DNA of 23,522 nt from a virus: positions 1 through 23,522 of the IMG/VR virus record IMGVR_UViG_3300035198_000022; one strand, given 5' to 3'. A program made the translations under genes and the position numbers. The notes beneath the pieces are model-generated. The model made no database searches. It saw only the letters and a list, made by a program, of their open reading frames with translations, and was not told where the DNA came from. The stretch's first letter is position 1, and each line of letters begins with the position of its first letter. Below, one piece after another: positions 82 through 2,756 of this stretch.

Positions 82-126
82 TGGCAGGGGAGACAGGAAT
101 TGAACCCGCAGCCTACGGTTTTGGAG
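82..126 (-). other. Prophage attachment site: 3' half of a tRNA-Trp gene
   Basis: Read on the minus strand, this is the 3' half of a tRNA. It has an anticodon loop CTCCAAA with anticodon CCA (122-124), the 3' side of the anticodon stem (ACCGT), a variable loop, a T-arm with GCGGG and CCTGT pairing around loop TTCAATT, the acceptor strand CTCCCCT, G discriminator and CCA (82-84). The 5' half is missing. Bases 127-131 pair with only three of five anticodon-stem bases, and no AGGGGAG acceptor strand follows. Integration into the 3' part of a tRNA leaves exactly such a fragment at one end, with the intact tRNA restored at the other, integrase-proximal end. That end would lie beyond the right edge. 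The true crossover could be anywhere in the shared segment. Confidence 0.85.
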
Positions 127-220: not shown

Positions 221-285
221 TTTGTGCCCTTATTAGTTTATTTTGTCCCCAATTTGTCCCCAATTTGTCCCCAATTTGTTCCCAA
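221..285. repeat. Tandem 11-bp repeats, probable integrase arm sites
   Basis: The unit TTTGTCCCCAA occurs four times head to tail at 242-252, 253-263, 264-274 and 275-285; the last copy has one change. A degenerate fifth copy starts at 221, about two helical turns away. An 11-bp period puts every copy on nearly the same DNA face. Together with the position about 115 bp from the attachment core, this suggests arm-type binding sites for the phage integrase or excisionase. The function is inferred. Confidence 0.6.
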
Positions 286-309
286 TATATTATAGCATAT
301 TTTGGGCAT

Positions 310-348
310 AAAAAATAGACCCTACATTCCTATTTTAGTTTGTAGGGT
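310..348 (-). terminator. Intrinsic terminator after the left-end cargo genes
   Basis: On the minus strand ACCCTACA (348-341) pairs with TGTAGGGT (326-319) around a 14-base loop, followed by CTATTTTTT. The stem is 8 bp with no mismatch. It closes the transcript of the three cargo genes just after the stop codon at 352. Confidence 0.8.
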
Positions 349-351
349 GTT

Positions 352-621
352 TTAATTAACTATATTTCTGTCTATATAATTGAAATCAACATTAAATGGC
401 AAATACTTTTTAATGAATTCTTTATTTCGTTTTTTATAATCCATAATAGATGCGCCAATTATTTCATCAGTTTTCCTATCATAATAAGTATACACACCAT
501 AATAGTTTTCGTCAGCAAAAGCCGGAGAGATCTTTTCAATAAAAATATCAAGTATATCGTATTCTTTATTGTAGATGTATTTTAATGAACTATTTGGAAC
601 TTTTGTTTTGCTTGCCATCAT
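352..621 (-). CDS. DUF2283-like protein, putative antitoxin/partner
   Basis: This 89-residue protein resembles DUF2283-type small proteins. It has YNKEYDILDIF near the N-terminus, then a second strand region YYGVYTYYDRKTDEIIG and an ASIMDYKKR end, the usual beta-rich plan of that family. DUF2283 proteins are often found beside small toxins, but no activity is known for this one. The start at 621 is chosen because GGAGGG at 629-634 lies seven bases upstream; an upstream ATG at 651 lacks such a site. The gene starts inside the 3' end of the nuclease-like gene, so translation is probably coupled. It is the last gene before a strong terminator. An antitoxin role is inferred from small size, overlap and partner; the family call is moderately secure. 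Confidence 0.6.
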   Translation of the reverse strand: MMASKTKVPNSSLKYIYNKEYDILDIFIEKISPAFADENYYGVYTYYDRKTDEIIGASIMDYKKRNKEFIKKYLPFNVDFNYIDRNIVN

Positions 622-994
622 ATACAATCCCTCCAGTCGTTTTAATTTCATTTGCCCTTCTAAGCAGATAAGTAGTTACTATTGTTCCTACATTTTCATT
701 TTCATTGCTGAATTCAACTATAGTTTTTAATATATAGAACCTTTCATCACCAGGTATCAAATCATAATAATCCTGTCTGTTGGGGTCAACTATCAAAACA
801 TCACTACCATCATATTCAGGTTTGACGTTTTGAATTATATAACGAGGTTGTTCTATATTGCTTTTTATTAATTCTGGTATACTAATATCTTCCCCATGTT
901 TTTCTTTAATATGATTTACCCACGTATCTGCTTTTAAGGATACTCTTCTCCCTAACGGATCCGTAGTAACAAATATAAAATTATTCTTTTCCAT
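590..994 (-). CDS. Probable PBECR/RelE-like nuclease, putative toxin
   Basis: This is a 134-residue soluble protein. The N-terminal half has the pattern VSLKADTWVNHIKEKH, then PELI, then IEQPRYII. The C-terminal half has a strand TIVTTYLLRR ending in GGIVYDG. This arrangement (a W..HI..KH helix, an I..P..I strand and a final VTTY-type strand) is what I know from the phage-encoded Barnase-EndoU-ColicinE5/D-RelE-like (PBECR) families, which are predicted RNases. Candidate active-site residues are the two His in NHIKEKH and the Arg pair RR. It lies between a DUF3467-like gene and a DUF2283-like gene, in one transcript separate from the lysis operon. The last 32 bases overlap its downstream partner. 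A toxin role is inferred; it could instead be a housekeeping phage RNase. Confidence 0.55.
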   Translation of the reverse strand: MEKNNFIFVTTDPLGRRVSLKADTWVNHIKEKHGEDISIPELIKSNIEQPRYIIQNVKPEYDGSDVLIVDPNRQDYYDLIPGDERFYILKTIVEFSNENENVGTIVTTYLLRRANEIKTTGGIVYDGKQNKSSK

Positions 995-1027
995 ATTTAT
1001 CTTACCCTTTTTATTTTACCTTATTCA

Positions 1028-1282
1028 TTATTTTTTTTCTTGTGCAGGCCCTAAATTAATATTTCCTAACATTTTTTCATAATTGTTTATAACTTCGCTC
1101 AATGATTTTAACAATATTTTAGCATGTTGTGGGCTCATTATTATTTTAAAATCAATATCTTCGTCACACATAGGTTTATTTCTATCTTTCTTAATGCCTA
1201 TATTAAAATTAAAATCATAGTTGCTTGCTTCTATTTGTATAACGTTACAATAATAAATTGGTTTTTTATTTTCGTTTTCCAT
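1028..1282 (-). CDS. DUF3467 family protein
   Basis: The 84-residue protein matches the DUF3467 pattern. It opens with IYYCNVIQIEASNYDFNFNIG, where family members have a strand ending in phenylalanine-rich residues. The signature MSPQHAKILLKSL follows, and then a helix ending in NYEKML. The molecular function of the family is unknown; members occur widely in bacteria and on mobile elements. The gene is first in a three-gene unit and follows a strong sigma-A promoter (1323-1352). An AAAAGGGG ribosome site lies a few bases before the ATG at 1282. There is no signal peptide or membrane segment. Its place at the head of a toxin-antitoxin-like unit suggests a regulatory or accessory role, which is inference. 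Confidence 0.75.
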   Translation of the reverse strand: MENENKKPIYYCNVIQIEASNYDFNFNIGIKKDRNKPMCDEDIDFKIIMSPQHAKILLKSLSEVINNYEKMLGNINLGPAQEKK

Positions 1283-1322
1283 TCATCTTTTCCCCTTTTA
1301 AACTATAAAATTATTTCATCTA

Positions 1323-1352
1323 ATTATAGGCACTATTTTTTAAAAAAGTCAA
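1323..1352 (-). promoter_or_regulatory. Strong sigma-A promoter for the cargo unit
   Basis: On the minus strand TTGACT (1352-1347) and TATAAT (1328-1323) are separated by 18 bases. The -10 is a perfect consensus and the -35 matches five of six positions. Transcription would start near 1315, about 30 bases before the ribosome site of the DUF3467-like gene. A separate promoter after the lysis terminator suggests expression in the lysogen, independent of the late operon. Confidence 0.8.
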
Positions 1353-1410
1353 GCACTACATATAGTTGCAAAATTAATCATAAGTACAAAATATATTTTT
1401 GCACTATATA
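1330..1410. promoter_or_regulatory. Three GCACTA-motif repeats over the cargo promoter
   Basis: On the plus strand GCACTATTTT (1330), GCACTACATA (1353) and GCACTATATA (1401) are direct repeats of a GCACTA core. The first lies in the -10/-35 spacer, the second abuts the -35 box and the third is farther upstream. The upstream copy also forms GCAC-N8-GTGC (1401-1416), and the middle one contains ACTA-CATA-TAGT. The layout is what operator sites look like; the binding protein is unknown. Confidence 0.45.
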
Positions 1411-1417
1411 TTGTGCA

Positions 1418-1441
1418 TAAAAAAATAGCCCCCGAAGGGGC
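1418..1441 (-). terminator. Intrinsic terminator of the late/lysis operon
   Basis: On the minus strand GCCCC-TTCG-GGGGC (1441-1428) is a 5-bp GC stem capped by a cUUCGg tetraloop and followed by TATTTTTTT. It lies four bases after the holin stop codon. It separates the late transcript from the promoter-bearing cargo unit. Confidence 0.9.
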
Positions 1442-1445
1442 ATGA

Positions 1446-1766
1446 TTATTGCTCAAGCTTTTGTTGGTTTAATACTATATTCATTTCTTTTACTGCAGCC
1501 TCAATAAGTATATTTATTTCATCATCTGTGAGTTTATTTTTTGTTAATTGTTTAATTATTGTTATCGCCTCTGCTTTCTTGTCAGGTCCTTTCCCGTTAC
1601 CTATTTGTTGTTCGACAGCCATTACAACATTTTTGGCAATGTTGTAATACTTTTTTGTATTTTCTGCGCCTATCTTTGTGTTTATAAAATTTATAGCATA
1701 TCCTAAAGCTGCCATAACTACTATTTGTACACCTGCGGTTAAAAAAGTCGTTACTAAATCCTTCAT
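1446..1766 (-). CDS. Phage holin, LLH family
   Basis: The 106-residue protein fits the LLH family of holins (Phage_holin_6_1). It has one N-terminal membrane helix (about residues 4-28, TFLTAGVQIVVMAALGYAI), then a mostly helical, charged cytoplasmic part with KKYYNIAKNVVMAVEQQIG and a C-terminal helical segment. Holins of this type make the membrane lesion that lets the endolysin reach the wall. It is the last gene of the lysis cassette; its ribosome site GGGAGG forms the last codons of the amidase gene, so the two are translationally linked. The start at 1766 has good spacing. A terminator follows immediately. The family call is firm; the exact lysis behaviour is not visible. Confidence 0.85.
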   Translation of the reverse strand: MKDLVTTFLTAGVQIVVMAALGYAINFINTKIGAENTKKYYNIAKNVVMAVEQQIGNGKGPDKKAEAITIIKQLTKNKLTDDEINILIEAAVKEMNIVLNQQKLEQ

Positions 1767-1770
1767 ACTA

Positions 1771-2505
1771 TTACCTCCCTAAAATTTTTAAAGTTTTATC
1801 GAGAAGTGCTGAAACTTCTCCCCATGTTACGTTGCTATCAAGATTATGGTTATCTGAAACGATTCCTAATTGTTTTAATCTGTCAAAACTTCCTTGTGCC
1901 CAATGTGGCACTGGTGGCGTTGGTGTTAGTGGCGTTGATGGTGTAGGCTTTTGTGGCGCCGGCAGATTAAAAGCTACGCATACCGCATTTGCAATAGCAA
2001 AGGCTATGTCGTTCAGATTGCCTTCCTGAGCTAAAAAGCTTGCATCTGTTGGATTGTCAATAAACAAATTCTCTAACAAAGTTGCTGGCATATTAGTTCT
2101 CCTAAGGACCCAAAGATGTGCTGCTTTTAAACCTCTATCTGCAAAACCTTTAGAACTATAAAATGCAGCTACATTATCATGCATTAATCCAGCTAAGTAT
2201 ATCGAGTGTTGGGAAGCATTATTTCCATAATAATTTTCAAAACCACTTCCGCCTCCACTATTAACATGTATTGATATGAAATAATCCGCACCGGCATTGT
2301 TAGCTATATCGCATCTCGTCTGAAGGTCATTGCTACTATCCCAAACTGTATTATCACTATCCCTTGTCAGAATAACATTACAGCTATTCTCTAAAAGGTC
2401 TCTTGTTTTTAATGCCAGCTTTAATGTTATATCTTTTTCTTGAAGCCCATTACCAACAGCTCCAGGGTCATATCCACCATGCCCTGGGTCAATACATATC
2501 TTCAT
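1771..2505 (-). CDS. Endolysin: N-acetylmuramoyl-L-alanine amidase (Amidase_3)
   Basis: This 244-residue enzyme should cleave the bond between muramic acid and the stem peptide, freeing phage by wall lysis. The Amidase_3 domain fills about residues 1-172. Zinc ligands are visible as H9 (DPGHGG), E23 and H80 (SIHVN), and the catalytic glutamate as E145 (TLLENLFIDN). A Pro/Thr-rich linker of about 20 residues (PQKPTPSTPLTPTPP) leads to a C-terminal domain that looks like one SLH-type unit (HWAQGSFDRLKQLGIVSD, then VTWGEVSALL), presumably for wall binding. There is no signal peptide, as expected for a holin-dependent endolysin. The start at 2505 is preferred over the ATG at 2511 because GGAGG lies eight bases before it but only two before the other. 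It lies between the XhlA-like and holin genes. Confidence 0.9.
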   Translation of the reverse strand: MKICIDPGHGGYDPGAVGNGLQEKDITLKLALKTRDLLENSCNVILTRDSDNTVWDSSNDLQTRCDIANNAGADYFISIHVNSGGGSGFENYYGNNASQHSIYLAGLMHDNVAAFYSSKGFADRGLKAAHLWVLRRTNMPATLLENLFIDNPTDASFLAQEGNLNDIAFAIANAVCVAFNLPAPQKPTPSTPLTPTPPVPHWAQGSFDRLKQLGIVSDNHNLDSNVTWGEVSALLDKTLKILGR

Positions 2506-2510
2506 ATACA

Positions 2511-2756
2511 TTACCTCCTCGTTATATAATTCAAAATTGTAAAAATTAAGCCCACGCCAGTTATAGCTACCGGCATGAGCCGCATTAACGTGGACAGTTT
2601 GCTTGCGGTATCGTCGACCTTTTGACGCAACCCGTTGTAATCCCTTATAAGAGTCCTTGTCTCGGCTATCTCCTTGCTTAGATCTGCCATATCCAATTTG
2701 AGTTGTTGAAACATTTCATATAGCTCTTTGTTGTTATACCATTCTTTTTGTTCCAT
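2511..2756 (-). CDS. xhlA: XhlA family hemolysin-like lysis protein
   Basis: The 81-residue protein has the XhlA plan. A long N-terminal coiled-coil region (KELYEMFQQLKLDMADLSKE onward to about residue 55) is followed by one C-terminal membrane helix (LMPVAITGVGLIFTILNYI) and a short positive tail (TRR). In PBSX-like prophages XhlA works with the holin in membrane disruption. The start at 2756 is preferred over the ATG at 2762, because AAAGGG is too close to the first ATG and about nine bases from the second. The gene lies just before the amidase, whose start region overlaps its stop codon area. The gene symbol is by family resemblance. Confidence 0.8.
   Translation of the reverse strand: MEQKEWYNNKELYEMFQQLKLDMADLSKEIAETRTLIRDYNGLRQKVDDTASKLSTLMRLMPVAITGVGLIFTILNYITRR

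Follow-up and report, generated by a model that had tools for sequence, protein, structure and literature searches.

Phage nucleases of the barnase-EndoU-ColicinE5/D-RelE-like (BECR) type make up the family PBECR2 (PF18810; Iyer et al. 2017, PMC5512222), whilst in the toxin-antitoxin-chaperone systems higBA-secB and mqsRA-secB a BECR-type RNase toxin, an antitoxin and a small third protein are encoded in one operon. A 2025 survey of RelE/ParE toxins (PMC11980606) covers both the toxin-antitoxin-chaperone systems, for one of which, HigBAC, activation by phage is possible, and DUF4258, a toxin family of the RelE/ParE superfamily, and mentions neither PBECR nor DUF2283. Here we compare with these systems a three-gene cassette from a 23.5-kb virus record of tailed-phage type (23,522 nt, IMG/VR IMGVR_UViG_3300035198_000022), the whole of which we refer to as the window. 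The cassette comprises, in order of transcription:

1028..1282, minus strand: gene 1, DUF3467 protein (P0001, 84 aa; Pfam PF11950, E 1.8e-10)
590..994, minus strand: gene 2, PBECR-like nuclease, the predicted toxin (P0002, 134 aa; weak PBECR2 match, relatives and structural model)
352..621, minus strand: gene 3, DUF2283-like protein, the predicted antitoxin (~89 aa; phrog_36767, E 2.6e-11, and syntenic homologues)

Compared with PBECR2 proteins, the cassette nuclease scores under the family cut-off and stands alone as a single-domain protein, with DUF2283 as its partner, rather than being embedded in a polyvalent or MuF protein. Like the toxin-antitoxin-chaperone systems, the cassette would combine a BECR-type RNase toxin, an antitoxin and a small third protein in a single operon, yet the sequence of DUF3467 is not that of SecB, the gene for the third component comes first, and the predicted antitoxin is DUF2283 instead of HigA or MqsA. 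DUF4258 is also paired with DUF2283 in several Bacillota genomes (L150-L153), so that there too DUF2283 stands beside a RelE/ParE-superfamily protein; these pairs differ in their toxin family, in a short 70-aa DUF2283 and in that no DUF3467 was seen with them. Bacillota and Bacteroidota also have PBECR-like/DUF2283 pairs of two genes (L197-L211), in which a homologous nuclease is followed by an adjoining DUF2283 as in the cassette, but which lack DUF3467 and form a separate tree group (support 100/99). In the open-licence papers searched, outside which an earlier prediction may exist, the trio is undescribed, DUF2283 is unnamed and DUF3467 is named by one paper in passing, in line with the first-pass annotation of the window, which knew of no description of DUF3467 as a third member. 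We regard the cassette as a pair of toxin-antitoxin-like genes to which a new third component is joined; judged from sequence, it is likely to be a prophage-borne, type II-like toxin-antitoxin system that forms part of the lysogenic cargo, DUF3467 being an accessory protein (regulator or sensor).

This reading is carried by the conservation of the genes as a set. A frame-wise profile search covered the neighbourhood of the nuclease in 24 loci (23 distinct, the window excluded), and in all 24 DUF2283 directly follows the nuclease on the same strand; the pairing of two small overlapping or adjoining genes, a criterion for type II toxin-antitoxin systems, is thus kept throughout. The first-pass annotation had named homologues without partners as counting against a module; nuclease homologues without DUF2283 did not occur among these loci. 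The nuclease and DUF2283 genes overlap by 17-44 nt in each of the eight intact cassettes measured, and in the window's clade DUF3467 lies upstream in 12 of 13 loci, in one case as a partial gene where the contig ends. With all three open reading frames on the minus strand and their order kept in relatives, the prediction that they form one unit stands. Among 299 Bacillota genomes the nuclease profile is found in six, all of which also hold a phrog_36767 (DUF2283-like) protein, and DUF3467 in ten, including five of the six with the nuclease (~8e-8, hypergeometric, calculated by hand). A phrog_36767 search of the same genomes led to same-order cassettes in L142 and L148, the latter sharing 46-55% identity with the window in all three proteins; L143 holds a cassette in the same order with DUF3467 frameshifted. 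When viral contigs and plasmids were searched with profiles and alignments, whole cassettes turned up in further, unrelated elements, among them L170, L171 and L169, where the cassette follows an endolysin. The window's clade includes a Staphylococcus phage-plasmid, a plasmid-borne Anoxybacillus prophage and two further virus lineages. The Anoxybacillus prophage carries the cassette with a LexA-like repressor on one side and a recombinase on the other, under the annotations DUF3467, hypothetical and DUF2283; its middle protein covers almost the full PBECR2 profile (E 1.2e-4), and its last protein matches DUF2283 (2.3e-10). In the Staphylococcus nepalensis phage-plasmid it follows a lysis amidase and a transporter. 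Many nuclease copies are chromosomal, with no phage genes alongside. Searches with single sequences were empty in viral contigs and phages, where both the nuclease and the DUF2283-like protein served as query, and also in genome contigs and plasmids, where the nuclease did; a DNA-pattern search for the DPLGR/W..HI motif returned nothing, or chance open reading frames only.

The assignment of gene 2 as PBECR-like draws support from its BECR-like residues, a BECR-like model of low confidence and a relative, P0008, whose alignment to the PBECR2 profile of 120 positions spans residues 18-119 (E 1.2e-4); it did not extend to the window protein's own Pfam score. Across ten nuclease homologues (alignment A8) D12, L20, H28, P50, Y76, T107 and Y125 are invariant and R73 nearly so, with the His, Arg and Thr set kept. 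The model places H28 in a helix (22-33) and T107 in a strand (99-109), giving the His and Ser/Thr expected of BECR proteins and agreeing with the described PBECR active site, a His in the N-terminal helix and a C-terminal Thr (PMC5512222). The best five PDB matches of the model in VIA-align (7m5f, 7vd7, 6cp9, 3ao9 and 9w3a) are toxin ribonucleases or toxin-antitoxin/contact-inhibition toxins, the top one being 7m5f, a contact-inhibition (CDI) toxin, aligned at Z 7.1 and 3.3 A over 92 residues. A lack of matches to such folds had been named beforehand as evidence against the annotation; the best matches of the low-confidence model are BECR toxins, whose fold has an N-terminal helix ahead of four or five strands. 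A sequence search of solved structures, profiles included, found no relative for any of the three cassette proteins, and none of them matched the anti-phage defence models of PADLOC-DB.

Gene 3 occupies an open reading frame spanning 352-651, in which ATG 621 is preferred over 651 as the start, because a GGAGGG ribosome site lies just upstream; from this start the overlap with the nuclease gene, which the first-pass annotation had noticed, is 32 nt. The DUF2283 identity given there rests on relatives, as the window protein has no Pfam match, DUF2283 (PF10049, cut-off 23 bits) included, and two syntenic homologues match DUF2283 at E 2.3e-10 (40.9 bits) and 2.3e-6 (28.1 bits).

Distant nuclease relatives were detected with a broader profile in Bacillota and Bacteroidota; those examined are likewise followed by DUF2283 (11 of 11) and never accompanied by DUF3467 (0 of 11). 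In the nuclease tree the DUF3467 label switches once, on a branch with support 100/99, which none of 500 shuffles matched; long branches make finer placement unsure and, the tree being unrooted, either state, with or without DUF3467, may be the older. Distances between nucleases correlate with those between DUF2283 proteins (Mantel r 0.72, p 0.0006), more strongly than either does with DUF3467. As the more distant relatives of the pair lack DUF3467, by these sequence comparisons the nuclease and DUF2283 are the core, to which DUF3467 was added in a single clade, one often met on phages and plasmids. Three loci are decayed, with the nuclease disrupted (by a frameshift in G103, a deletion in G138 and stops in G213) whilst DUF2283 stays open, the direction expected if the toxin were lost first. 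The proposal of a toxin-antitoxin or defence module expressed in the lysogen is upheld in part: the genes form a conserved unit, the nuclease has BECR-like residues, and position and GC content fit lysogenic cargo. Toxicity, neutralisation, expression in the lysogen and any part in defence are predicted properties, and DUF3467 does not belong to the core.

What is observed is the order of the genes and their overlap, their conservation and that of the active site, the structure of the clades and the pattern of decay; proceeding from these to RNase activity, toxicity, neutralisation by DUF2283, a role for DUF3467 and defence, we infer the following scheme. Gene 2 would be a BECR-fold ribonuclease that cuts cellular RNA, and gene 3, translated from its overlapping start, would bind and block it as in type II pairs. 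Gene 1, whose predicted fold is beta3-alpha, may be an oligomerising or nucleic-acid-associated regulator, and our likeliest guess, by analogy with the SecB-like chaperone of toxin-antitoxin-chaperone systems, is that it would stabilise or gate the antitoxin. The nuclease would then be freed upon disturbance, for example by a superinfecting phage or by prophage loss. Several observations weigh against this scheme. The window nuclease matches PBECR2 at E 0.058 (14.0 bits, under the cut-off of 27.1), and syntenic relatives, at 22.7 and 20.2 bits, also fall under that cut-off; its model is of low confidence (pLDDT 64) and the best structural Z is below 8, hence no proof of fold. DUF2283 carries no recognised DNA-binding domain, so that autoregulation is not evident, and draft assemblies are the source of the decayed reading frames, among which there may be sequencing errors. 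The role of DUF3467 may moreover be minor, because it coevolves only weakly with the nuclease (r 0.39, p 0.06) and in G296 carries a frameshift, the nuclease and DUF2283 there being intact. This frameshift, together with its structural model and its gene neighbours elsewhere (see below), suggests that DUF3467 is an accessory and not the antitoxin itself.

The identity of gene 1 as DUF3467-like, proposed in the first-pass annotation, was borne out by its score of 41.1 bits, above the PF11950 cut-off of 25. Its AlphaFold2 (AF2) model is beta-beta-beta-alpha with a well-predicted core (pLDDT 79), and the top structural matches are COMM domains (Z 5.2-6.1; 8esd, 2.0 A over 58 residues), which are dimer-forming modules, followed by weak matches to the nucleic-acid-binding folds of PUR-alpha, PC4, MRP1/2 and Whirly (all Z <= 6.1). 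We do not claim a COMM-domain identity, as these matches rank first but all Z are low, nor a SecB identity, as SecB is not among the fold matches listed and there is no SecB match in Pfam. Elsewhere the DUF3467 gene has varied neighbours. In Bacteroidales it lies between rpoC and rpsL-rpsG-fusA, and one record in the phage collection, MT836236 (L166:5956-6282), is not phage but a piece of Bacteroidales chromosome with rpoC, DUF3467, rpsL, rpsG and fusA. In a Bacillota locus (L187:1438-3132) it is directly downstream of a gene for a Ro60/TROVE RNA-binding protein. In Marinitoga camini virus 2 (L165:560-1569) it directly precedes, in the same operon, genes for a 116-aa uncharacterised protein and a PemK-like toxin, by its gene content possibly another three-gene toxin unit. 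The DUF3467 gene also lies ~160 nt before a HicB/HicA pair in the viral contig L177 and, with scores below cut-off, two genes before a ParE-like gene in G178. DUF3467 matches in Octadecabacter and Bacteroides plasmid records and in a mislabelled Bacteroidales contig of the phage set were set aside as irrelevant.

These settings bear on what DUF3467 might do. It is possible, if rather unlikely, that within the same toxin-antitoxin pair it acts on RNA, the ribosome or RNA polymerase and brings the nuclease to its target: its place between rpoC and rpsL-rpsG-fusA, its position after the Ro60/TROVE gene in one Bacillota locus and the weak model matches to PUR-alpha, PC4, MRP1/2 and Whirly besides COMM would all fit, but the operon position of a distant homologue does not fix function, the structural Z are all <= 6.1, and the two-gene relatives do without DUF3467 altogether. 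That DUF3467 is a second, co-acting antitoxin or an operon repressor we consider unlikely. As the first gene of the operon it occupies what is often the antitoxin's place, and it precedes the PemK-like toxin in Marinitoga camini virus 2, HicB/HicA in L177 and, weakly, the ParE-like gene in G178; yet the model shows no evident DNA-binding motif, the nuclease of G296 stays open with DUF3467 frameshifted, and the two-gene relatives again lack DUF3467. More broadly, and doubtfully, mobile toxin-antitoxin operons whose toxins are unrelated (PBECR-like, PemK-like, HicA and ParE-like) might have DUF3467 in common as their third component, a sensor, chaperone or targeting factor of COMM-like or PUR-like fold that was recruited from a protein of the core gene-expression operon.

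The remaining features of the window concern the expression and position of the cassette:

1323..1352, minus strand: promoter-like TTGACT-18 nt-TATAAT (11/12 consensus bases)
1353..1417, minus strand: candidate operator region (read from the sequence, a lead only)
303..350, minus strand: cassette terminator, an 8-bp stem, then TCTATTTTTT (-12.0 kcal/mol, z -2.6)
1428..1441, minus strand: terminator of the upstream lysis operon, then TATTTTTTT (terminator scan and folding)
1446..1766, minus strand: holin (Phage_holin_6_1, E 1.1e-16)
1771..2511, minus strand: endolysin, an amidase (phrog_435, E 4e-54)
82..126, minus strand: attachment-site core, the 3' half of a tRNA-Trp gene, 45 nt, CTCCAAAACCG...CTCCCCTGCCA (matches full tRNA genes)
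242..285, no strand assigned: tandem repeats of 11-nt period, TTTGTCCCCAA, near the attachment-site core (like integrase arm sites, by which their role is predicted)

On the minus strand the packaging and structural genes are followed by holin, endolysin, lysis terminator, the three-gene unit, its own terminator and the tRNA-Trp 3' half. The near-consensus promoter reported in the first-pass annotation is present, as the best of many promoter-like sites (18 in the region against 14.7 expected, the site at 1352-1323 being the closest to consensus), and so is the unit's own terminator, with a stem within 303-350 after the lysis terminator at 1441-1428; its fold energy was equalled by 4 of 200 shuffles, and a simple scan missed it because the loop is long. 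The candidate operator consists of a quasi-palindrome, TGCACAATATATAGTGCA (1417-1400), and an imperfect copy of it, TGCAACTATATGTAGTGC, at 1370-1353, touching the -35 hexamer; a motif scan of these repeats at 1353-1417 was no better than chance. A genome search placed the tRNA half at the end of complete tRNA-Trp genes, in many Bacillota as well as some Saprospiraceae, and beside integrase genes in L019 and L025; by this evidence the record terminates at the attachment site and the cassette sits between the lysis genes and attR; the TTTGTCCCCAA repeats (242-285) are possible integrase arm sites. The space between lysis genes and attachment site is a usual place of lysogenic cargo, and this position, together with the low GC content of the three genes (27%, against 40% in the rest of the phage), fits such cargo. 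An Rfam scan of the window found no RNA.

That the nuclease is instead an infection tool of the phage, for host mRNA shut-off or counter-defence, would accord with the proposal that solo phage PBECR domains cut host or CRISPR RNAs (PMC5512222); the cassette's own promoter and terminator, separate from the late operon, its position by attR and the many chromosomal copies without adjoining phage genes make this improbable. That the three genes are unrelated cargo brought together by chance, as the weak Pfam scores of the single proteins might suggest, is contradicted by the conserved order, overlap and tree congruence, and we give it next to no credence.

As a separate observation, 20 nt of the nuclease mRNA (828-847) could pair without mismatch with the endolysin mRNA at its ribosome site and upstream end (2517-2536), the complementarity extending to 31 nt at 84%. 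A match of 20 nt was reached by 0 of 200 codon shuffles, and the complementarity is absent in L169 and L164; noticed post hoc, it may be chance and, if real, could damp endolysin translation.

If the cassette is indeed a toxin-antitoxin pair with DUF3467 as an accessory, it would give two widespread uncharacterised families, DUF2283 and DUF3467, a testable function, and natural variants, with or without DUF3467 and with the nuclease broken or intact, would form a compact set for testing what the third component adds. It would also add a three-component toxin-antitoxin type spread by Bacillota phages, and would bear on how lysogenic cargo protects or addicts the host.
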